Positions 46,301-64,000 of a stretch of DNA of 64,000 nt are shown piece after piece (within the stretch, counting starts at the first letter, position 1; the number at the start of each line of letters is the position of its first letter). The notes under the pieces are model-generated. The model saw nothing but the letters and a program-made list of their open reading frames with translations. It was not told the origin of the DNA and did no database searches. The stretch comes from Strix aluco (lineage: Eukaryota > Chordata > Aves > Strigiformes > Strigidae): the NCBI RefSeq assembly GCF_031877795.1, contig NC_133971.1:9339973-9403972 (forward strand), read 5' to 3'. The position numbers were made by a program, and so were the translations under genes.

Positions 46301-49300
46301 TATGCCACAAGTATTTGCTTGCTTTCCAGCTAAACAAAGAGGTCAATTTAAATATACTACCTCTTTCAACAGACCTTGTCCATATTGATATCATCAGATC
46401 TCATAGCTACAACAATGTTGTTACATGGAATACAAGAAATTTCTCTCAGACTGGTAGAATCTTTCAAAGTGAATGAAACATACTGTCCTGACTCCAAATT
46501 TAACAGAAGGACCCATTTTGACTCCAACTCCTGTCATTAACTTTTACCAAAACATGCAGGTCTGTGTATGTATACATCACATGTATGTGTTTATTTGATC
46601 TTTCAGAGAGAAAGGATTATGCTCAGTCCAGGCTCCTAAAAATCTGACTTATAGCCAAATACTGATTATTTAATACTGAAAAGGAGGAAGAGCATATGTA
46701 ACATTTAACTTCCATTTAGTTGCATTCTAAGACCATTATGTAGTGTTCAACCCCTTATTTGAGACCAAGAGACAGGATCAGAATGCACAGGAAAACATTA
46801 ATCAGAGCCTGCTTTGTCTTCATCTGAAAGATGTTCTGTAAAGATTTCAAGGACCCAAAACAGCATGAAAAAGAATTAGAACAGTCTGCAACTCGGTTTA
46901 GTAGAACTGCTGCTTTGCTCTTTTAACAGACTTTAATCATGACATCGATCTACACCAATGAACCACACTCCTGGTTAACGTTGTGTTAAATATTTGGTTC
47001 TTTCCAAATCGTGTTCACATGCAATAGCTACATTCCTGCCATAATCAAGCTCTGTGCCTGCCCTTTCTACTGAATCAGAATTGTTCCTCTAATACATCTG
47101 AGCATGTATTCCCTCCACCTTGCAACAAGAAAGAAATACAAATCCACTTGTGAATGCAACCTTACACTTCCCACAGTGAAATGTTATCTAAGAAAATACT
47201 TTGAGGTCTGGAAAGTTCTCAAACTGCATATCATTGACCACTTAAGCCCAACGAGAACTTGCTGACTGTCCACGGAGAAATAAGTTAGTCACAGAGTGAT
47301 GATTTTTCCTTGTTTTCAGCTGTTGCTACAGCTGGCATGCAGACACTTTCATGAGAAGACAAAGCAAAAGACCTACAAACCAGCTGGAAATGAAGAACTG
47401 CCAGTCTTACTGCCTCTGCTAGGGGCCTAGCAGAAGGAGAAGAGGAAACAGAAGCCAGAGATACCCAAATAAGGCAAATATTTGGGACAGCAAAGGAAAA
47501 GGACAAAGTAACCAGGTGATGTAAGAATCGTCCCAGACAGCTTCGCTACCAGAGAAAGGCATCGAGCAGCCTAAAAGGAAAGAAGCCAGGTACCAGAGAG
47601 CTGCATGCAAATGAGCCTTACTGGGAAAGGATGCTCAGTGGGAGATAAGAGAAACACACAACTGCCTCCTTATTTTTTTTCCAAAAAAGGGAGAACACTC
47701 CTTGCATTACAAAAACCATAAGTTAGGCCATGGTTTCAAGACGTTCCTTTCAATGGCAGTGCCAGCTCAAGCAGTTTCCACTGTCTGGTGCTTGATTGTG
47801 CCAGGGGCTAGAACTGTTTGCATGTTGGAAATGCCAGACATTTCGTGGTAACCCTGCCTTTGCCTTAAACGGTTTTACAATATTACATATTTTTCTTTTT
47901 TTTTCTGTTTTGGCGTTTCTGTAGGGCACTACCTATACATGTGCAACTGTTAACTGGAAGAGAGGATTCCACGAGACAGTCTGTCTGTTCATCCTGTAGA
48001 AAATATGAGAATCTATCATATAGAATAAAGCCTGTCCAAAGAGACACCCCTGCAATGGATGAGGCATTAGAAGTGCATGCTTACAAAAGGAAATAAATGC
48101 TGTCTCATTAATTATTATTTGTCTGGTTTCTTTATAACCACATTTAGTTCTTGCTTTATGGCATATGCCATCAATTTGATAACTAACAGGTGCTGCAGAC
48201 TACAGTTCTTGAGATTGAAACTATTAAAAAAAAATCACACACAGATAAGCCACAAAAGCTGCAGAATGCGGACTATAGAAAGGCAAACACGTATCAGTTT
48301 TATATTGTGTTTTACTGACTGTGGACTCTGGCCTGTAGCTTGGCTGCAGAGAGCTCTTTGCCACAGTTACTGTATGAAAATCACCTGGTAGTACTCCTTT
48401 ACATTGTGCACACCTGAGTTCCTGCTTTCCACTCAGTTACACAGTTAGTTTGTCAGAGAGTGCTTTAGACCTGCTTAACATTCAGCGTGCTGCAATCTCA
48501 CCTACACTGAAGGTCCTTTACAGCACAAAGCGCCTCACAGGCACACACCTCATGCAGTCATTTCCATCAGCACAGGGGCAATACTTTTACATGCTGCGTG
48601 CTGATGTAGAGGGTAACCGAGGGGAGCCAGGTCCTCCATGTTCCTCATTTGGAAATAAATTAACTTGGATATTTATATTCTTTAAATGAATGAGTGCCCT
48701 GTCACTGCATGTCAGCCAGTAAGAAAAATTGTTGGGATCAAAAATTAAATTTGAATTTCAAACCACTAACTAACCAAAGCACAAGAAAGGTTACATTACA
48801 CACTGCATGTCTGATCTTCCACTGTCTGCAACCTTTGCAATCCTTATTCCTGTGCAAAAAGGGAAAAGCCATGCTCCCCGCTCACTCTGAACAGCGTTGA
48901 AAGATGTGACAATGCCGTAGCAGCTCAGTAAAGAACCAGATACACAAGTTCATCATAATCTGTCTTCGCTGACACCAGAACTAAATAGATGCCTTCAAGT
49001 AAGTGGAAGCATTAACCAGCTTCACTGTAAAATGCCAGAGGAAATGCAACAGAGCTCCCATACATAAAACTAAATTAATGATTCATAAGGCTGCATAATT
49101 AACAATGCTAATTCAAAAAATTATGTAGTTAAGGAAGCACATCCAGCCTTCCCTTGACCTCTCATTTCACATGTGATTGCAATTAGATAGGCATGCACTG
49201 TTTCCCAAACTGTGCAGTCCACGGGGATACGGCATGCTTTTGTATAATCTCAGATCTAGGTGGCATATCTCCTTCAGGAACAGCAAGTCCTTAGCCTTCC

Positions 49301-52300
49301 ATTTGTTAAGACTCCAAAGCAATGCTGCTTGCAAAACCATGGTCACATCACTGGTAAACTGCACCAGCTGCAACATCCTATGGAGAAACAACAGCGTGTT
49401 TTACTCCCTGTCCCCTGAGCCTTTTCACTCAAGAGGAGTGTAAGTAGTGCCAGCGTACCTCAGAGTCTGGTCTTATACCTGCCCCCTGCTCAGCCTGCAG
49501 AAACCTCTCTTGCTTCTTTGGAAACGACCTGGAGGAGCAGAGACAGCAGGTCCTAGGAACTGGAGTCTCAGTCGCATATATCGCAAAACACCCGGAAACT
49601 TTTCTTAGGCCATAAGCGCTTTACCAGGTCTTCTGTTCTTCTTCCAGCCACACGTGTCCCTGCCGCTTCAAAGCAGTATCTTTCTCTAGTTTTGTGCTCT
49701 ATAGCTACTCGGGTGTTCGCAGCAAATCCTCTTGACTGCCCCCTTCACAAGCTTTGAAGGAAGAAACAAAACCCTGAAGTGCATGCTGAGTACATGGTTT
49801 TCTAAGGCTGGTAACTCAGTCAAATCAAAGCCACAACTAAGACACTTCATAGTTATGGCTATTTCAATGCCAAATTCTAGCACACAGAGCTCAGCCAGTC
49901 ACGCTGCAGAGCTGTTCAAAAGAAGGCAGCAAAAAGTCTTTATGGAGGGAAAAATAGTTTTCCACTCTCCTCATACTCACACATAGATGAAATGTTTTCA
50001 CTCAAACTTTCCAAAAAATTCACCTTTGAGCAGAGTCCAAGGGCCTCATTTGAACAATTTAAAAACTTCCTGCAAAGAATAAATACTTTAATCGTATAAG
50101 AAAGCATTGCTCAATAACAAATTTGACTGTGGGTAGTTCTTCTGACGTCAATTCCATTTCTCCCAATTTACATTGTCACGAGACCACAATCAACCCCAGT
50201 GCCTACGCAGAACTATTAAAAATTATTACTCCCTTCTCCAACAAAAAGTTATGGAAGACTGAAAAGCGAAGGCTAACATACCCAGCAAGCGTTATATACC
50301 TGTAAGAACAGCACCATAAAAGAGCAGACCAAAATGCCTAAACCTCTAAGCTTCATACCAAAATCTTCATGTCACAAGATACATGAAAAGCGGTGGAGAG
50401 GGAGATCTCCGGAAGCATTTAAGGTTGAAGCGGACGGTGGCTCCTCATCAGTCCTCCCCGGCCAAGGTTTAACAGAGCTGGTCTTTGGCACACAGCAGAG
50501 TTCCAGGACAACCTGGTGACTTCAGCCAGATAGAGATTTGGATTCTGCGGCAGACTCTGCAGCAGCACAGCCCACATCTTGCTCAGCTGATAGTTTAGGC
50601 ATGGAGTTATACCTGAACTGCCTATGGGTTGCATGAGTTTACTACCCTTTCATGATAATTCAATAATATCTCAAAAAAACCCCACAAAGAAAACCTAAAT
50701 GCAATGTCACATGGTAATGTCTCTCAGTAATTTCTTTGTAAATAAGATGGTACAAACTAGGTATAACAGGTCAAGGGTTCAGGCCCGAAGAGGAATTGAC
50801 TGAAGCGTTCAGACACGGCACAGTGCTTGAAACAAGGCTATCCTGGGGGATAGCGGGGTATTAAAAAAGCGAAAGTTGCCTGTGTTGTTGAGATCTTTCT
50901 CTTTGTAAACAATGGGACCATGCTTCTTTATCTTATTACTGCTTCACAGAGGAATAAGCAAGTGTTGTTGTAAAGGAGAAGACAGGGAGATGGAGATCAC
51001 CAATTTCTTCCTTTTTCAAGGAAAGGACTGATTTTCCCATCTTTTACACACACATACACACCCACTTCCATTTAGTATCATCACTGTTGTAACCACAGAG
51101 TTTTCTGCCACAGCTCCTAGACAGCATCACAAAATAAGTCCAACAAACACAAGAAAAAAAATTCCTATGGACACTGTGATACAAAGAGGTCATTTTGTTT
51201 GCATCAGCTGAATTAAGGAAAAGAAAACCCCTTTCCTGATTTGTGAATCAAATGCCTCTCATATACAAGTGTCACTCAAAAGATTGCCTTCTCTGTATTT
51301 CAGATCTTCTTTTTTGCACAAACAGCTATTGGGTTGATTTAGCAAAATTCTCATTTTCCCTAATTGCTCTCTCATCTCCATGAACAGCCTCACTGTCCAT
51401 AAGAAGCTTCTTACTTTCAACACATTTACAAATTTGTTATTTATATTGTTGGCTAGTTGGTACTCAATCCTCCCCCTCATTCCCAAATTACTTGCCATAG
51501 GTCATGTTCTTTTCTAGCAAGCTTCAGTCTCCAGAACAAGAAATGTAACTATTTGATTAAATGAGCTCTCAGAACTTCCCATTTACAAACATAACTTTCT
51601 TTTTCCCTTCTGCTCTGTTTCAGTTTGCTTTGGTTACAGATATACTGCACATATGCCTTTTATGGCCCTGTTGCTGTGTGCTTAAACAGCAGAAATCTCT
51701 GTTGACTATGAGGATTTTCGTCTCCTTCACTTTCACTCTAGAGTCTTTTCCATTTTTCCTCTTAAAAAAGAAATATTTCCTTCCCTAGAAGACTGTATCA
51801 CTCCGGTATCCTTTAATCCAAGCACTCCCCAGAGGACTCTGGCTTTAAAGTTTCAGTTTAAATGCTGTTCCTACAACAAATCCTAGTAATCACATGTTTT
51901 CAGTGGCATTATGTACGTTAGAGGTCACAATTAAAATGTCCAAAAGGAACTCCATGGCTTAGACTTAAAACATGAGGAAAATCTGCACAAAGCGATCTTG
52001 GGAACTGTGAACCCCAAAACAAAGTTTGGCATTTCTGAATGTTGTGCACAAACTCAACACTCTTAACCTCTAAGAGATGATTAAAATAACAGGGATAAAT
52101 TAATCATAAAACCATGTATTACTATCATAGTTGATCCTATTCAATTTTTTATTCTAAATGACCCACATTAAACTTGAAAACTGTGTCCCCCTTTATTGCA
52201 GGACACATTTCAAAATACTCAGAAATTCCTAGACCCCATTTTAAGAAGCCAGTCATGTAAGAGAGGTCTTTTGGATGCTGAAGACTGTTGAACACCATGG

Positions 52301-53639
52301 TCAGATTTCTCAGTCAGATCTAAGACAAATTCTTTCAAGCGCTCATGGAAGATGGGCTCTCTCTGCAAGCCTCTGGTCTCACATCGCAATGCTGTTAGTC
52401 TAAGGCAACAAAGGATTCCCACTAGTGTAACAGAAAACAGAACATAGGCTTCAGTTCAGCTGAGAGCAAAGACATGGGAAAGAATCTCATTTTCCAGTTG
52501 GCTTGGGACCCTAACTTTTCCCCAGTGCTCAAGTAACAGTAAGACATAGTTGTCACCTTTTTTCTTCTCTTCATTCAGTTAAAAGGCAAATACCTGAAGA
52601 GAGGCAAGAATTCGGCTTATTTGTGGGTTACTTGTTTTGTTTAATGCTCCATTCGTTCTATCTGATTTCACCAAATCCTACAAGGATTTTATTACCCTCT
52701 TACAGCTCTGTACAGAGCCAAGTAGGCACCATTAAATCAGACTCCTACTCCAGAGCTTGCTCTTGAGCTCTGTTCAGATTTGCAGGGAGGAGCAAAGAAC
52801 AAGAGAACTGCAAACAAATATGTAACAATTAACTTGAGAAATATATATATATACTAGTCCCTCTGTAACCATGTAATGTTTTTTCATTATACACACCACT
52901 TGAACAAGTACAATTTCAGGGCTTTACTAACTACCACAGCCTTGAACACAGAAATCCCTAAATTAGACAGGGTATCTTTCAAGTGCAGTGCAATAAAACC
53001 CAGCTTTGGGGAGGCCGGGGTTTGGTTTTTTTGAGTTGTTTTTCTGTTTGATTGTTTTTACATCATCTCTAAAATATCCCATAGTCAGATATAACAGTCT
53101 GTACACCAGTGACTTGCCTCCTGCCTGCTCTCTGCTCCTTCTGCAGGCTCCACCTGTGTCTCAGTTTCGGTAATTTGTGGCTCAGGTGCAACTCTATTGT
53201 GTCTTCTCCAAAATCTCCAGAACAGATTCCTGAAGAACAAATTTCATACTTGTTTGAAAACAACAGAAAGGCAGTTTTGAAATGCAGATAACAATACATT
53301 TACTATTAATGTGCATTATGTTTCTCTCTTTCTTGTGAATCACAACAATTGACTAAAATCATTACACAGGTAAGGAAGATGCTCAGTCATGTTGATTAGG
53401 TGCGGTGCATCTAACCAATGGCATGGTTACATACACCCAAGCCCCCCTCCTAGCTCACTTAAATTTCTGCTTTCTGTGGCACTAGAGTGAGTACCGCTAT
53501 TGCAGTGGCCTAAACCAGTAACCTAGACATCACATCTACTTCTCCCTCCCTACACTGCATATGTAAGTGCAGTGATAAGACTTCCTCGACCAGGACACCT
53601 CTAGATTAAGAAAATGGGTACTACTAAACATGTTTCTGG

Positions 53640-53820
53640 AAGTCTCTAAGAGGCAACGGTGGAATGTTATGAGGATGAATATTACAGACAGGAACTGAAC
53701 CACTGGCAGCTAAAATACTGGGAGGGACTGTCTCTGTGCAAGAGCCAGGAATAAATCCTAGAAATACTGACTTGTGGTTCTTTGCTCTAGCCACTAGGTT
53801 CAGTCGGCACTCCTCTCCCC
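53640..53820 (-). repeat. MIR1-type amniote SINE relic
   Basis: On the minus strand: GTGGCTAGAGCAAAGAACCA, then CAAGTCAGTATTTCTAGGAT, then TTATTCCTGGCTCTTGCACA. This fits the MIR 5' and core order: GTGG-TAGAGC, GAGTCAGGACTCCTGGGTTC, then ATTCCCGGCTCTGCCAC. The 3' half is less clear. Confidence 0.6.
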
Positions 53821-54984
53821 GTAAGACCTTCATAGCACTACCCGAACAGCAATCAGGAGCTAACAGTTGAAGGAATGTTCATTTAAAATTTTCTTTTTCA
53901 GGCTACCATGCCATGTACGTTGTGCAGCGCAGTGTCAGAGGGAGGTCTAAGCCCAAATGGCAAGTTGGGACCTGAGTTCATGTCTGCTAAGGCCAGGGTC
54001 CTCCACCCTGCGAGTTTTTATCCAGTTTGCTAATGTATCAGCCAGACACAGTGAGGTAGGCAGCAAAGATCAGAGACTCCTCTTCTGCACAGCTTCTGCC
54101 AACCACGAATCTTGAAAGCAGAGTGGGGTATAACCAGGAGAACACTTGGGTGCTACTTAGAAAGGAAAAAGCACACAGCTCCTCCCCTTGGCTAGTGTTT
54201 CAAGAAAGTAATTGCACGTCCTTGAGGTACACTGCCAAAAAAACATGTCCTTTGAGACTGTGGTGACTGGACTAGGAAATCAGCAGCCCATCTCTCCCAG
54301 CTCACCCAACACTGCTGTGAGACCCAGCCCTCCTGTTTGCCCTGTGAGAGGGGTAATGTCTCAAAGCCACTTGGTGCTTTTCCCAGGCATGTTTCTGCCC
54401 TTTCAGAGGGAACATCTATACCCCAGACCTAAAAATATCGTAAGGCATTGAAAAATGCCAAAGGAATAATTCAGTGAAACTCATAATCCTGACATTTTTC
54501 CAAGCGGCAGACACCTACTCTAAAGATGATACAAATTGAACTGCTTTCAGGCTATCAAACTGAGATCAGAGATGGGGAAAAAAAAAAAAAATCAATAAAA
54601 TTACCTCCTACAAAAGTTAACCCACAGAATAACTGGGGGTCTCGAATAGCTGATTATGAAGATAGTATACTTTTCTTTTATTCCTGTTCCTTTCAAACAT
54701 AATCCTAGAGCAGTAAAACCAAAACCTCAGTATGTTCTGATTACCTCCTGGGTCTAATTTGTTTGTTGCCCTTAAACCAATTGCTACCAGAAAAATGTGA
54801 TCAGTCCACACGCTACAGCCACAGCTGCATTTGTAGCTTCCCAGCTGAGGCTACTTTGGTGGAACACATGACATATCCTAAATTCCTCCTCTATCAGGAA
54901 GGTGGTTCTGCAGGTGAGGCTGATCTATTAATAAAGTTTTCCCACCAGCTGTTTCCTTCATAATAGGGGGGTTTTATATACACT

Positions 54985-56229: not shown

Positions 56230-56625
56230 TTTGGCTCGTGCCTGGACTCCTGCCGAGCGTGCCTGCGAGGTCTGGAGGGTCGAGCGAGGCTGCTCCCGGT
56301 GCTGGGTGGTGCTTTGGGGGCTGCTGTCGGCAGCTCTTGGTGCCCGTCCTGAAGCCATCCCCTGGGTTTCCCCGGCCCTGCCTGCGTCAGGCAGCTGGGC
56401 ACCGCTGGGTGCTTGCGGCAGTGGAGGTGAGCTGTGCGGGGAAGCGTCCCGCCGGGGTGGGCGAAGGGGCTCGGGGATCCGGAGGGTGTCCTCCTTCCTC
56501 CCTTCCCCTCCCCTTGCCGGGACAGCAAGTGACCAGCGCCTTTCTCCATTTTGCAGTGTGTGACACCAGCAAGGCGGACCAGCTCCTCATCCTCAGCTCT
56601 CCCCAACCTGCTGCGGCACGTGAAC
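56230..56625 (+). other. 5' untranslated region with a 130-bp intron
   Basis: A non-coding first exon runs from about 56230 to 56426 and ends GGAG before a consensus donor GTGAGC. The intron 56427-56556 ends with TTTCTCCATTTTGCAG. The second exon starts at 56557 and reaches the start codon at 56626. The first exon boundary is inferred from the TATA-like box only. Confidence 0.55.
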
Positions 56626-57747
56626 ATGGCCACAGAGACAGAGCAGATCTGCCCCATCTGCCGTGATGTGCCACGTAACAACGCTTACGCGATGCCCTGT
56701 GGTCACCGGTTCTGCCTGGGCTGCATCCTGCGCTGGGTACACAGGAAGCCAGAGTGCCCACTCTGCAGTCGACCAGTAGAGAAGGTCTGCTTTCATCTGT
56801 TTAGAGAAAATCGCTATCTAAGCTGTGTCATCAGAGACCCAGAAGAGTTGCCAGACATCAGCAGCCAGGCAGGCACAGCTCCCAGCCGCCCAGCCCAAAA
56901 CAGCCCCCATTGCCCTGTGGCGTCCCCTGCACCTTCTCCACAGGGGACACTGTCCCCAGATGAGAAGGGGACTGCAGGGCCAGAGGCAGAGCCAGTGGGT
57001 GGCATCCTGCCTGAGGTCTGGGTACAACTCTTCCAGAGATAGGGGTATCTTCTTCAAGCTGTGCTGCTGCCCTGGCTGTGTCAGGAGCTGCAGGCAATAT
57101 GTGGGGCCTGCTGGTGGCAGGCACATCATGCAGAGGCCAGAATCCTGCACACCCTGTGCATCAGCAGCCTGGTTGCGGAGGCCATGGTCCAGGTGCTGCA
57201 GCCTGACTTTGGGGAATGTGCAGCACCTCTGGTCCACGGCGTTATCAATATCATTGTGGATCAGTGCAGCCAGGACGCCCGGGGGCAGCTGCACAACCAT
57301 TCTGTGTGGGAAGAGGATGACAGCTCTAGGGCTGGCTCCAGCTCCACCAGCCCCAGCCCCACCAGCTCCCGGTGGGGGACTCCCCCCTCCCACCCGTCCT
57401 CCTCCAGCAGCTCTCCAGGCTCCGACGGGGAGAGGAGGAAGCCGGCACCTCGGAGGCCACCCTCCGCGGGGGTCCCGGCCGCCCCCCATCTGCTCCCACC
57501 TTGGCAGAGCAGGAGCAGCCTAGGAGGAGCCGGGGCAGGTGGCGGTGGCAGGTCCTTCTGCCCAGGGCTGCAGCCACAGCCCCCTCTGCTCCTGGCCATG
57601 GAAGGGACCGCTCAACTGGGGGGTCCCAGCGCCCCCCGAAGAGGAGGGCCCCCGGGCCCCAGGCCTCTCCACAGCCCTGCAAGAGGCCGCCCCACCGGCA
57701 GCACTAGCAGGGCTGTAGCAAGTCTTTTTTCAAGGAAAAGTCAATAA
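56626..57747 (+). CDS. TOPORS-like RING-finger E3 ubiquitin ligase, with in-frame stop
   Basis: Starts at ATG in good context (AACATGG). An N-terminal C3HC4 RING occupies residues 9-47: C9, C12, C25, H27, C30, C33, C44 and C47 are all present, with W37 and P45 as in E2-binding RINGs. This resembles TOPORS and the many short TOPORS-like genes of birds. The frame meets TAG at 57040-57042 (138 residues). It then stays open for 234 more codons to TAA at 57745. The second part has LPWLCQELQAICG and VQVLQPDFGE blocks like the helical region of that family, then a Ser/Pro/Arg-rich tail. A single CAG-to-TAG change would explain the break. Either the gene is a recent pseudogene, the RING half works alone, or a small intron removes the stop. 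The coding part is intronless. If family function holds, it tags nuclear proteins with ubiquitin or SUMO. Confidence 0.7.
57043..57747 (+). pseudogene. Open continuation of the RING gene after the TAG
   Basis: It lies in the same frame as the RING half, with 234 codons open. It contains the conserved-looking helical block (about 57061-57300) and a low-complexity tail rich in Ser, Pro and Gly. The tail is GC-rich, which also keeps other frames open by chance. Without read-through, splicing or reinitiation this part is not translated. Confidence 0.55.
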
Positions 57748-57765: not shown

Positions 57766-60700
57766 CCATCTCTGGGTACTGCTTTCTCCCCCTTCTCCTG
57801 GTGCCTCTCCCTGTCCCACCTGCCACACTGTGGGTGACACTCGCCTGCTGGGGGGCATGGCCATGGGCCCCCGGAGCCCCAGGGCCATGCCCGTGGTGCC
57901 TCCTCCTGCAGAAAATCCTGCTGCAGCCGCCCACCCGCCACGCAGAAGATGCCGAGGGCAGAGCGGGCAGGAGGGGAAGCTGGTTTGCCGCAGGTCCGAT
58001 GGGGACCCGACTGGGCAATCCAAGGGTCGGGGTGAGCTGTAACCTTGCCCCCTCCAGCACTTGTCTCTGCACCCCACAGAGGGTGACACAGCAGGAACCT
58101 CTCCAAGGTGGGGAGATGTTTGTCCTGCGGGAGGTGTCTGTGCCTGTGTGTTCGCGTGTGTCTGCGCAGGGCTCAGTTTCGGGCGTCTCTGGAGGCAGTG
58201 AAGAAGCCTGCTGTGGAAGGGAGTGACCTGCCAAGGAACGGGCTGAATAACCCCCTGAGCTCCCCCGTTTCTCATGCTGCTCGTGCTCAACAGCTGCTGA
58301 CAGCAGCAGTGCTGCAGCACTCGCATCTGACCTGCTAGCTGCTTTTCCCTGCACACATGGCCTGCGGATTTGTGACACTGTCATCGTGCAGAACTTTCAA
58401 CAAGAGGGTGCAGAGAGCTCTGACCTTTCTGCTGCTGGTTTCAGCAGCTGGCACGTTCCATGGCAGTAGGAATCAGGGCAACGAGCTCCTTGGTAGATGC
58501 CCGATTGTTTCTCTCCCAGAAAACAGCATTCGAAGCACTGCTTCATCACTCAGACTCCTGCCTCCTCCGGCCGTGCCTTGGCGTTCAGAGGAGCCCAGCT
58601 ACTTCCACGGGAGCTGTGAGAACACACACAGACACACATATGCAGAATGGGGCTGTTAACAGATCTCATCCCAGCACCGTGCAGAGAAGCAGTTCCCGAG
58701 GCAAACTGGTGTTTACTCCCTGGGAGAGGCTTTGTCAGCTTTCTGCCCCTGCCTCTGAGGGGCTTTGGTTTAGGAGAGCGGTGACCTGAAATCAAGAGGG
58801 TGGGACTGGTTCTGACAGGGGAACACTGTCCTCTCTGGTGGTGCACGGCCCGAGGGGCAACAGATCCTCACCCACAGCCTGCCACGTCCCAGCGACTTGA
58901 CACAGCAACTGTGAGACTGACACACACTCTGTAACATCAAAACTATTGTTATTCACATATTCTTTAAGATTTTTGAAGAATTTTTTCTGGTAGACAAAAC
59001 AGCAAACAAAATATCCTGGCCCACAGTCCCAGGGCAGCAGCGCTCTCAGATTAGACAGCAACAACTTCCCATCCAGAGATGCAAAACAAAAAATAGCAAC
59101 CAGGAGATTCTACACCAAGTTCTATAAAACAAACCAGGGGTACAAATAACCTGCGTTAAAACAAACAACACACCAAACCAAACCTCCCCCAAGAAAACGA
59201 TACTGAAATTGCTACATTTCATTCCAGCATTGGTTAAAAGCCAAAGAGCAAACATAAAGGAGGAGAATACACTTAAAACCAGAGAGATGGGAACTTCAGC
59301 ACAGAATTAACTGCTGAAGATTCCCAGATAAGCTACAAAAATGCAGAAGGAAAGATTTCATGACATTCGTACCCTCGGTTCGGGGAGTTGCTGTGAGGCT
59401 CTTCAGGCTGAGGAAAGCCAAAGTACATTTCACACAAGCGCTTAATAATCTTGAGAAAAAAATTACACATGCTAAGGATACGTTATGGGTGGCACAAGAA
59501 AAGAGAACAGAGCAAACAGAGATGAACAGGTTCACTAAATAAATGCCACTTAATCTCCACCACAGTTACTAGTGTGCATGTGTGTTGAAAATCTAAAGAC
59601 TATTCAAAAGACTACTCAAAAAACTCTGAAAGCTCTAAAAGACTACTCAAGCTGTTAGAATAACTTGAGAGGCATCCAGGCAGGTGTCACGAGGCACAAT
59701 ATAATACAGAGAGCAGCTTGCTGAGCACCAGCTACCAATAAATAATAGCACAAATCTTTACATGCAAAACAAAGGTAAGTGTGGCTTGTTAAGTGTTTTG
59801 AAAATGCACACCAACTACAGCCCAAATATGTAGGAGCATTGCTTCTCTAAATCTTCTACAAGGAACACAGAAAACCAGATGGGAGCATCTGTATATAATT
59901 ACTCTAGAAATCATTTTCAAATTCAAATTTCAATTTCAAATTCAAGTCAAATGGACTTACAAGCTTGTCTTCCTTAGGTAACTAAGCTAAGAGAGCGTGT
60001 GATACTGCACGCGTACCCTCCAGTAAATTTAGCTGAATTTGTATGAGAGGCTCAGGAGCTGAGATTTCTGCCCCAGTGGTAAAAATATTTCATTCCTACA
60101 GGTTTCATGGAAATAGGCAGTCATAGAAAAGAGAGAAACCATGTATTCCAGCCTGCTGTAGCACAGCCCCAGAAAATTCACACGGACGAGGGACATTATG
60201 AATGGTCTAGCCACAGAAAAAGTTTCAGTTAGATCTTTAACGTTATGAAATATGGAAAGCATAAAACACGAGTGTATAAGGAGTCAGGTTTCAGCGCTGC
60301 TGAACCATATACCAGAAGAGTTTACAAACTAAAATGCCTTATAACCTTCTTTTTCATTTTAAAAAAGAAACACACATACACGTTTGCATCTTCTTGCTCA
60401 TACCCTGTTATTGTGGCAACAAAAACAACCACCTTCTCCAAAAGGAAGCTAGACGATTTTGGGGTGAGGAGTGTCAGAGGGGAAACCACAGTAATTTCAT
60501 TAGTTTATGCATACCGGTAGGAATTCCTTCTCAAATTTGGCACTTAACACTGAGAGTCGCCTTTAAAGCTTGGCAAGAAATTCTCTCCAGCCCACAAGTT
60601 TCCTCATTTCATCTTAGGACACGCTGCCTCTTTTGGATGCACTACCTCCAGAGAGACAGACAGCTCTAAATGTGTCAGGTTTACCTCAATTCACTTTGCT

Positions 60701-61529
60701 CCCTGTCAGTCAGATTTAACATCAATCAAAGTAAATATGTAAGTAAAACTAAACTTAAGGTCAGTTCCAAGTTTGGAAAAAACAAAGCTGTATGAAATTA
60801 AAAGCAACGCTAATACAGTTTAAGAACTGCAGTTCAGGGGTTGCAGCAGCAGCCAAATTTCTGAACACACCTTCTCCCCCGAACAAAACCCCAGACTCAA
60901 AGTCCAGTTATTTCACCCTCCCCAGGACTCCTGCTGCAGGCAACCCCCCCCCAGGTCCTCTCTCCTCCTTCTCCTTTTCCCTTCAGGTCTGACCTGGCTT
61001 CCAGCTTCTTGCTGTGCAAAAGTTGCTCACTCATCCACAGGCCTTACAGCTTCTTACAGCAGTAATGTTTCAGTAAAAACGTAACTGCACCTGTACAGAG
61101 TTGGGTTTATTCCACCAGACTTTTCTCCCCCGCTCTGTTTCTGCCTGCTGCAGCCTTTCAGGCAATCTGGACTTGCATTTCCCTACCCAAACGCCACCAG
61201 AGATACTAATACCACTTTAAATATTACACAAGATACCAGATACACTCACAGTCAGTTAAACTTGTGAGCTTTAGGCAGTCCCTAACTTTCCAAAGAAACC
61301 AAAGACAACATGCTTGGATACATTATTCACACAGGTGAAAGAACTGCTAAAACAGCCCCATCCCATAGGTCCTTGCTTCACCCAACTCACATTAATTTTG
61401 AGCCTTGCTTTTAGGAAGCTGTGCTTAAAGGTAGCAGGTTAATAGGCACCTATTAGCCCTCCCACAGGTCTGACAGGTTAAAAACTGACAGCAAAAACAC
61501 AGCTGACATACACCACTCCCCAGACTCAC
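57766..61529. other. Non-coding interval between the RING gene and the INSR-like exon
   Basis: GC-rich to about 58850, then AT-rich. It contains a 10-bp inverted repeat (GGGCATGGCC at 57853-57862, GGCCATGCCC at 57883-57892). A short decayed tandem AAAGACTACTCA occurs at 59594-59648, and TTTCAAATTCA repeats at 59914-59945. I looked here for the cysteine-rich exon 3 of an INSR gene on the minus strand and saw none. Confidence 0.45.
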
Positions 61530-62432
61530 CTCTCTGACAGCGATCGTGGGTCCAGCAGTGTTCAATGACAATGCCAGTTATCACAGTAGGTGGGCGGCTG
61601 CTCTTCCCTCCCACAGCTCCTGGACACACATCTCCACACTCTTCTTTGTCATCCTTGGCCACGATGTAATTATCTTCTGCAGAATCTAAAATCCTTGACC
61701 AGTTGATCATGGACAAGTCACACAATTCATTGTTCTTCTCCATCCACACAGAGCCTCGAGTAATGTTCATCAGGTTACAGAGGCAGATCTCCTTCAGGCG
61801 AACCATCTCAAAAATGACCAGCATGGAGGTAAAAAACAGATGAGCTCCTTGAATCACAGTGAGGTTGGGGAAAAGTCCCTTTAACCTTTCGAGGCCATAC
61901 ACGCCAAAAAGAAGCAAGTAGTCTGTAATCATAGTCAGTTTAGGAAAGCTGAGTTCATGCAAATCTTCACGCTTGGTGTCACGGTAGAGACAGACACGAC
62001 AACAAAAACTGGTGCAAGCAATGTCTCTAAAGTTTATTATTCACGTTGTTCTTATATATCCTCATTACAATACCATGTGCTCTTTTTATGGGTCATAAAG
62101 TTGTTTCTCAACATTACTATTGGCTAGTTCTTCTTCTTCCTTGTGCTTTGTGTAGACGTGCAAAACTGCAGCTTCTTCGTGCTGTTTCTCAGTTCACAGT
62201 TCCTCTTATCTTGCTTGTTCAGCTCTTCTTGGGACTTTCCGGCCCCTCATGGATACACTGGAATTTCATCAAGGCTAAATTCTTCTTCAATCAGGCTGGT
62301 GGCAGACCTGCTGCCTCCCCCGACAGCTTGGTTTTAAACATCAGCAATATTTGCAAGTGGCCCCCAATCACAGTGCAGTTCTCAAGCATGTTCAGCCGGG
62401 TCAGATGTTGGCGATGTCCATTCTTCTGCAGA
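61530..62432 (-). pseudogene. INSR: INSR-like exon 2 (L1 domain), broken by an LTR and a frameshift
   Basis: The insulin receptor L1 domain forms part of the hormone-binding face. On the minus strand the exon opens after TTGCCTTCCAG and ends before GTGAGTCTGG, phase 1 at both ends, as I recall for INSR exon 2. Motifs: [80 protein letters not shown] and [15 protein letters not shown] and DNYIV favour INSR over IGF1R or INSRR. Without the insertion it is 548 nt, against 552 as I recall for the human exon, which fits loss of one codon and one base. The one-base loss near 62404-62412 puts a TGA at 62401-62403 in the opening frame. A 349-bp LTR interrupts the rest. No flanking INSR exon was found, so it is a relic. 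Confidence 0.88.
61977..62325 (-). mobile_element. Solo LTR of an endogenous retrovirus inserted in the INSR-like exon
   Basis: A 349-bp element with inverted ends TGTC...GACA. It is flanked by the perfect 6-bp direct repeat GCTTGG (plus strand) at 61971-61976 and 62326-62331. On the minus strand it carries a TATA box (ATATATAAG), an AATAAA signal shortly downstream, and a short U5. A 6-bp duplication and this compact layout suit class II (alpha/beta-like) retroviruses of birds. No internal genes remain. It shares orientation with the host exon. Both duplicates are unmutated, so it may be fairly young. Confidence 0.88.
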
Positions 62433-64000
62433 CTGGAAGGCAAAGAACAATGTTATTTATCTATTTAATACAAGGTAATTGTTTTAGTTATCTAAATACA
62501 CAGTTTTGTCCAACCGCACAAGAATATAAGGCTACACTCAGAATTCACTGCCAGGTCCCTTTCAGTAAAGCATGCTTCAAGTGCTAAGAAATGTACTGTG
62601 GGGAACATTCCCTGGTATAGGATTACAAAATAAGACTGAAGGGGTATTTCATAACTTTTTCTGCCATCTTGAGTTTCTGGATGTTACCTCTATCACAACA
62701 GCAGTTGTAACACCAGTTCTTAGACGTCATTTGGCGTTTACAAAAGTAAGAGATGTCTATGCAACAGAGTCTGTTTTCTTTAGATATTGCCAGCAGCACA
62801 CCTACCTCATCTCAGGTTGTGCAATTAATGCCAGTGGATCAGAGAAAGTAATTTAGAATGGTTATGCAGGGAGGGGAAGATAGGAAAAGAGTAATGGCTA
62901 GGAAACGGTAGTGCTGCGGAAGAGAGCAGAAAAAGCTGGACACATGCACGAGTACAGCCTACACTCTTGCCCAGACTTTGCTGACAGGAGTAATTTACTC
63001 ACTAGTAATTTTTGCCGTAAGCATTCTGGTCAGATTCGGAGTTTGGGCTTTTTTGTTATTATTTTCCCAAGGTTGCGAATCTCCCTGCCTTGACTACCTG
63101 GACAGTTTATTTAGTACAACCAGTAACCCAAAGACCTGGCAAAGCGAACAATTACATGAAGCATAAATTAGAAGGTAAACAGAATAATATGAATCCAGGC
63201 ACCAGCAAAACGAAAAGACGGAGAGCAAAAAGGGGAATATTTTTTAAAACTCTAAGCACAGGTAAGAAATCAAGAAAGAAATTCAGGGCCCCATGCCTGT
63301 AGAGCACAACAAAAGCCCCGGTGATAACCCTTTTCAAACCAAACCTCATAGAAATACACAGCTGGACCTTGATGTTCAAGGGAGAAGCCTGTGGAAAGGC
63401 AAACCTGCTTGGCAACACAACGCTGCAAAACAACCGCTCCCCTGTCCTGTTCAGGGGGATTCTTTTTTAATGATTATCTTTTTAAGACTGCATCCACTTG
63501 AGGGATTCTCTCTTGACTACAGCTGAGACAGCCCAACCCTGTCTCCCTGCCCCCTAAGAATTAAAAGCAGAGGATCTTTGCTCTTTTTGTCACTGTATGT
63601 AAAGCTCACTGACTGTAAAATTACTATGCCACAGCTTCAAGAAATCACCCAGCAATAATCAGGCCTTACCAAACTGAGGTAGAGACAAATGTTTAATAGT
63701 GACAATTGTCTGACTCCTCATGGTTTTACACAGACCACTGCTGTGTGGGTTACAAATAAATTCTATGCAAACATCTTAATGATTATTCAAAAATTTGCTC
63801 CACTGGAATAAAAAAAATCAATAAATCTGGCAACACTAATATAGAATTTGAAGCAATGTTATTGCCCAGTGGGATTTTCTGTCACTATATCCAAGTCGTT
63901 TCATAAATTGCTTTCTGGAAGAAAAAATTAATGCACACAGTGCCTCAAAGATCAACTTTTTAAAACTGGGAAAGGAAATCTGATGACCAACTACCGGCAA
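62433..64000. other. Non-coding interval right of the INSR-like exon
   Basis: AT-rich sequence with no recognised exon, RNA gene or repeat family. An INSR exon 1 (signal peptide) would lie this way on the minus strand but is not visible. Open frames at 62046-62468 and 63152-63433 are LTR/exon antisense or unsupported. Confidence 0.45.

Follow-up and report, generated by a model that had tools for sequence, protein, structure and literature searches.

What is a piece of the insulin receptor gene (INSR) doing beside RGL1 on a bird chromosome, and what has become of it there? The window, the whole 64,000-nucleotide stretch of Strix aluco DNA analysed here (C41:9339973-9403972), holds an INSR exon 2 to the right of a run of RGL1 exons. 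We extended the reading to C41:9603972 and searched the 1.41-Gb assembly of 202 contigs. Positions above 64,000 are window coordinates continued past the right end.

A broken INSR exon 2 with a solo LTR

The exon lies on the minus strand at 61530-62432 and is broken, although both of its splice sites are kept: the acceptor, CCTTCCAG directly before the exon, and the donor, GTGAGT directly after it. With its insert the exon measures 903 bp. Subtracting a 349-bp LTR and one copy of a 6-bp duplication leaves 548 bp, compared to 552 bp for exon 2 of the INSR locus on C29. The best PDB matches are to the insulin receptor, which reached 225 bits with the 153 amino acids translated from the 3' part (61531-61989), against 159 for IGF1R and 137 for INSRR, and the same part matched the Pfam Recep_L_domain at 4.9e-17. 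The first-pass annotation had called this an INSR exon 2, and the splice sites together with the PDB and Pfam matches confirm that call.

The genome was then searched with exon 2 from C29, and all nine of the nine candidates were scored. Eight places carry an INSR exon 2: one each on C29, C32 and C39, and five on C41 at 8.91, 9.40 (the window copy), 9.52, 26.1 and 37.8 Mb. The query was 90-94% identical to the seven other INSR copies and 68% identical to the ninth candidate, an IGF1R-like sequence on C12. Since both these identities and the PDB scores favour INSR, an origin of the exon from IGF1R or INSRR was rejected.

The insert (61977-62325, unstranded) is 349 bp long, begins with TG and ends with CA, and is flanked by a 6-bp target duplication, GCTTGG, at 61971-61976 and 62326-62331. 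It is carried by three of the five C41 copies. The C29 exon and two of the C41 copies, those at 26.1 and 37.8 Mb, have the target site uninterrupted and free of LTR. LTR-related sequence occurs elsewhere in the genome at 71-95% identity. An LTR insertion with a perfect 6-bp target duplication had been reported from this exon, and both the duplication on either side and the empty sites bear it out. By its TG...CA ends and its target duplication the insert is the solo LTR of a class II endogenous retrovirus, a class assignment that follows a general length rule, in that we take a 6-bp target duplication to mark class II.

A DNA-based copy of the INSR 5' end

The exon does not stand by itself. 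Homology to INSR runs from 58918 to 68761, beyond the end of the window, and takes in exons 1 and 2 with intron 1 between them, the CpG island at the promoter and, at the other end, about 2.6 kb of intron 2. The in-window part (58918-64000, minus strand, identified by blastn against C29) consists of part of intron 2, exon 2 and part of intron 1. Against C29:2220001-2240000, blastn aligned the segment at 90.1% over 3074 columns, 90.2% over 4545 and then 81.5% over 2010. Exon 1 lies near 68340-68444, and both its donor and the CpG-rich island around it are kept in the copy. The earlier statement that no other INSR exon accompanies exon 2 is correct for the window, in which tblastn found no other, but not for what follows, where exon 1 and its CpG island come about 4.4 kb past the right end.

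On C29, exon 1 reads MGPRAAAAALAVAVVLAAWCGRSRGE followed by a GTGAGT donor, in a phase matching exon 2, and its ATG is present. Exon 2 there is open over its 552 bp, and a Furin-like exon at C29:2205656-2206021 follows exons 1 and 2 in order. Because C29 holds exons 1 to 3 in order, we regard it as the INSR locus and the C41 piece, by sequence comparison, as a copy of its 5' end. It had been proposed that INSR be sought elsewhere in the same genome; this locus is what such a search finds, so the exon 2 in the window is not the only one in the genome.

A retrocopy is expected to lack introns. Here they are present and align to C29 at about 90%, and the segment is therefore a DNA-based copy. The first-pass annotation had offered as one reading a segmental copy of a single exon with its splice sites. 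The copy is indeed segmental, as the aligned introns indicate, and does include the splice sites, but exon 1 and the promoter region were copied too.

The left junction, at which INSR intron 2 meets unrelated sequence, lies at 58830-58918 (unstranded); it is common to the copy at 26.1 Mb on C41 and absent from that at 37.8 Mb. A retrocopy of an unspliced transcript was also considered and rejected. No poly-A or poly-T was seen at the left junction, the C32 and 37.8-Mb copies extend further into intron 2, and the C32 copy includes about 1.2 kb of sequence preceding exon 1.

Loss of coding capacity

We found that the start codon has changed from ATG to CGG in every copy in which exon 1 was found, four of the five examined (the window copy, those at 26.1 and 37.8 Mb, and C32). 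On C39, exon 1 was not found within the 800 bp fetched. An early 1-bp deletion shifts exon 2 of the window copy so that its canonical frame runs into a stop at codon 10, and the LTR interrupts the exon as well. The canonical frame stops at codon 10 in all four C41 copies translated (8.91, 9.40, 26.1 and 37.8 Mb), and exon 2 is likewise frameshifted on C32, where it is 551 bp long, and on C39, where it is 548 bp. At 26.1 Mb a different frame stays open throughout exon 2, but we see no use for it without a start codon.

The Furin-like domain encoded by exon 3 (PF00757) gave four matches in the genome and none on C32, C39 or C41, with 24 of 24 candidates scored in a search that a badly decayed exon could escape. 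Of the start codon, the open exon 2 and the downstream exon 3 expected of a functional gene, none was found for the C41 piece. Judged from its CGG start codon and frameshifted exon 2, the INSR fragment is dead. Most likely it does nothing itself, and taken alone it is ordinary genomic debris. A further Furin-like exon, with one stop within the match, was observed at C200:11987-12322.

Divergence among the copies

Three of the C41 copies lie within about 0.6 Mb of each other and are nearly identical, and two of these are mirror images in a palindrome. Over the 3415 columns present in all eight copies, these three differ by 0.09-0.32%, and the window copy differs by 3.5% from that at 26.1 Mb and by 7.5% from C29. 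At a general bird rate of close to 0.0019 substitutions per site and million years, these differences would place the split from C29 roughly 20 million years ago and that from the 26.1-Mb copy roughly 9, ages that gene conversion would make too young.

In an unrooted tree the copies at 26.1 and 37.8 Mb were joined with 99% bootstrap. The copy at 37.8 Mb continues into intron 2 as C29 does; the window and 26.1-Mb copies both break at 58918. This misfit between tree and left junction needs either gene conversion or two identical events. A second misfit was seen when the window was compared with 26.1 Mb, where the 396 bp left of the junction are 7.6% different and the RING block about 10%, against about 4% for the INSR part. 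Putative gene conversion of the INSR part among the C41 copies would explain both misfits. We infer a single founder for the copies with the dead start codon; it may not hold for C39, where exon 1 was not found in the 800 bp fetched and no DWNN match was returned.

An RBBP6-like unit adjoins most of the copies

The copy in the window and that on C32 have more than INSR in common. The flank at 68765-72786 is present in both at 83-91% identity, and it has no match on C29 up to 2244000. It opens with an RBBP6-like exon (Pfam DWNN, 2.5e-13; PDB RBBP6, 1.4e-23) whose ATG, at 69495, stands head-to-head with the INSR start about 1.05 kb away. From this ATG and a donor we predict the exon to be the first of its RBBP6-like gene. 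Among the 40 of 82 candidates scored, a 2935-bp stretch taken from the flank recurs at full length and about 92% on at least C4, C10, C14, C16, C36 and elsewhere on C41, with arrays on C4, C14 and C36.

A search for the RBBP6-like family, in which 128 of 128 candidates were scored, returned 87 matches, 65 to the first exon and 22 to the next. The first-exon matches, which probably include RBBP6 itself, have no internal stop, and one is partial. They are spread over 16 contigs (C2, C4, C6, C9, C10, C13, C14, C15, C16, C23, C29, C32, C33, C36, C41 and C202) and are clustered on C14 (13), C36 (15 full and 1 partial) and C13 (8).

Such a first exon adjoins five of the seven extra INSR copies, namely the three near-identical ones on C41, the one at 26.1 Mb and that on C32, in a head-to-head layout that for the 8.91-Mb copy is deduced from positions. 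No DWNN match was found beside the 37.8-Mb copy or on C39 among the 128 candidates, and the majority of RBBP6-like first exons stand without an INSR neighbour. Because the first exon adjoins five of the seven extra copies, the INSR fragment looks like a passenger of an amplified RBBP6-like unit, and we infer that the unit carried it. A passenger beside one multicopy unit at more than one site is the arrangement expected of interspersed segmental duplication carried by an amplified unit, and it is seen here.

A large palindrome on a probable Z chromosome

The window (1-64000, unstranded) is part of the left arm of an inverted duplication in which window coordinates 1-112596 pair with 129874-242451. 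The arms show 141 mismatches in 112544 aligned bases, an identity of 99.8%, and are separated by a spacer of 17.3 kb. Each is at least 112.6 kb long, the outer end lying beyond the sequence read. The long inverted arms and very high identity of sex-chromosome palindromes are thus both present.

Several gene families occupy the palindrome. An RGL1-derived gene lies on the minus strand at 1045-42398 and continues to the left of the window; its exons match human residues 5-439, though not every residue. The exons were located with a putative human RGL1 sequence as probe, and with that probe the earlier naming of RGL1 as the neighbour of the INSR exon was upheld. Their well-matched parts contain no stop, one stop falls in the poorly matched flank of the exon for residues 117-141, and several GT/AG edges were recognised by eye. 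A RING-finger gene copy with one stop lies at 56620-57321 on the plus strand (Pfam RING, tblastn), and its mirror copy also has one stop; we take the gene to be a bird TOPORS-like one. Four open relatives lie near the palindrome centre at 93581, 113553, 128178 and 148198; the arms and the spacer hold two each. An acrosin-like exon, whose best PDB match is beta-acrosin, has four open copies (L011:6944-7858; window coordinates 91061, 98907, 143585 and 151435).

Related blocks were found on C41 at 26.0, 26.1, 75.2 and 83.7 Mb among the 7 of 238 candidates scored, which did not include the window's own place. In the same set, window 46986-54359 has two copies in opposite orientation, at C41:75.24 Mb and 83.68 Mb, with 95-96% identity. 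To the right of the pairable part of the right arm, a RhoGAP-domain open frame was seen at L028:6462-7376 on the minus strand.

C41 carries three DM-domain matches within 100 kb, presumably the DMRT1/2/3 cluster of the bird Z. Together with known gene positions, these matches suggest that C41 is probably the Z chromosome. A germline-restricted chromosome, an idea raised by the mixture of autosomal genes, was set aside as less likely given the DM-domain matches. The Z should recombine in males.

Origin of the fragment and alternative explanations

We consider it quite probable that the segment is a dead segmental copy, made at the DNA level, of an INSR 5' fragment with the following history: a single fusion joined it to an RBBP6-like unit that was amplifying, its start codon was then lost, copies of it reached C32 and the Z, and an LTR insertion preceded duplication within a palindrome. 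In this history a fragment reaching from the promoter region to intron 2 would have been copied out of C29, and this founder would have been joined to the promoter side of the scattered, amplified unit. Loss of the start codon would have followed that fusion, and the unit would then have taken its passenger to C32 and the Z. In the Z version a deletion may have removed the upstream part, and a new left junction beside the RING unit may have trimmed the fragment further. Once this version had parted from the 26.1-Mb copy, the LTR would have entered exon 2. Finally, the block would have been duplicated into the palindrome with its RGL1-, acrosin- and RING-family genes, with a third copy at 8.91 Mb that is still near-identical. 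On this history the fragment appears to be a fossil left by DNA blocks as they spread from chromosome to chromosome and no new receptor.

In a different reading the promoter and splice sites copied from INSR would still be in use. The CpG island would act as a two-way promoter, helping to drive the RBBP6-like gene on one side and, on the other, non-coding or chimeric transcripts with INSR exons spliced towards RGL1. The head-to-head layout over about 1 kb, the preserved CpG-rich island, the retained exon 1 donor and both exon-2 splice sites would all fit, as would the RGL1 exons downstream on the same strand, the first one seen lying about 19 kb from exon 2. However, the start codon is lost, exon 2 is frameshifted and cut by the LTR, an oppositely directed RING copy lies between, and RBBP6-like first exons mostly do without an INSR neighbour; we think this reading unlikely. 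A related proposal is that the INSR CpG-island promoter, once captured, became the germline promoter of the RBBP6-like unit, and that this explains why the unit reached fixation and multiplied on the Z beside RGL1. It would mean that the promoter of an ordinary metabolic gene had been recruited into a sex-chromosome amplicon, and we rate it as quite improbable.

The first-pass annotation had also raised the possibility of a last remnant of an extra INSR-family gene, that is, a once complete second gene on the Z of which only the 5' end is left. That the 37.8-Mb and C32 copies include more of intron 2 than is present in the window copy would agree with it. The evidence otherwise points away from such a gene, as none of the four Furin-like matches falls on C41, C32 or C39, four copies have the same dead start codon, and exon 2 is that of INSR and not of IGF1R or INSRR. 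We hold this origin to be decidedly improbable. Least credible is an assembly artefact, whether a false join of two chromosomes, which the same annotation had named, or a false duplication. Assemblers are apt to fail at a palindrome whose arms are 99.8% identical. Against this, the 264 kb read contain no N, junctions recur at separate sites with different divergence (the left junction at 26.1 Mb among them), the mirror arm repeats the arrangement, and the three near-identical copies do differ from one another. An artefact is very improbable.

Relation to known amplicons

The preferred history, a dead passenger of an amplified unit, has partial counterparts in birds. In the zebra finch, PAK3L ampliconic arrays on the Z are described as a truncated autosomal gene copy that was amplified, with testis expression for some copies (PMC13060935). 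A truncated autosomal gene copy has been amplified on the probable Z here too, but the amplified genes of the zebra finch are mostly free of frameshifts (PMC13060935), whereas the INSR piece is dead and rides along, among RGL1-, RING-, acrosin- and RBBP6-like genes, in a palindrome. In the chicken, testis-expressed amplicons are described on dot chromosomes and in a Z region of roughly 9 Mb, which resembles the present case in that amplified genes occupy small chromosomes and the Z (PMC9974502). The accessible part of that report names neither INSR nor RBBP6-like units (PMC9974502), and here one unit links small contigs with the probable Z. The palindromes of the duck W are large inverted repeats, formed from repeats and thought to hold pseudogenes (PMC7787181). 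Ours is likewise a large inverted repeat, but it lies on the probable Z and not on the W.

In titles and the beginnings of abstracts, a search of the open-access literature returned no account of INSR copies on a bird Z, nor of RGL1- or RBBP6-like genes amplified there, and the word RBBP6 was absent from the open-access papers returned by a follow-up search. The setting, a large palindrome on a probable Z combined with wide amplification of an RBBP6-like unit and its passenger, looks like a new variant of the known avian amplicons. In primates, core duplicons are amplifying gene units that pick up and spread flanking passenger segments, which produces interspersed segmental duplication. The passenger pattern appears to be the same here, in a bird genome and with a candidate RBBP6-like core.

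A dead fragment with a known source is a datable tracer of how sequence moved among C29, C32 and the probable Z. Because the fragment is dead and its source is known, the scars that copies have in common (the lost start codon, the left junction and the LTR) help to order the events. With 65 RBBP6-like first exons on 16 contigs and a large palindrome, birds become testable for core duplicons of the primate kind.
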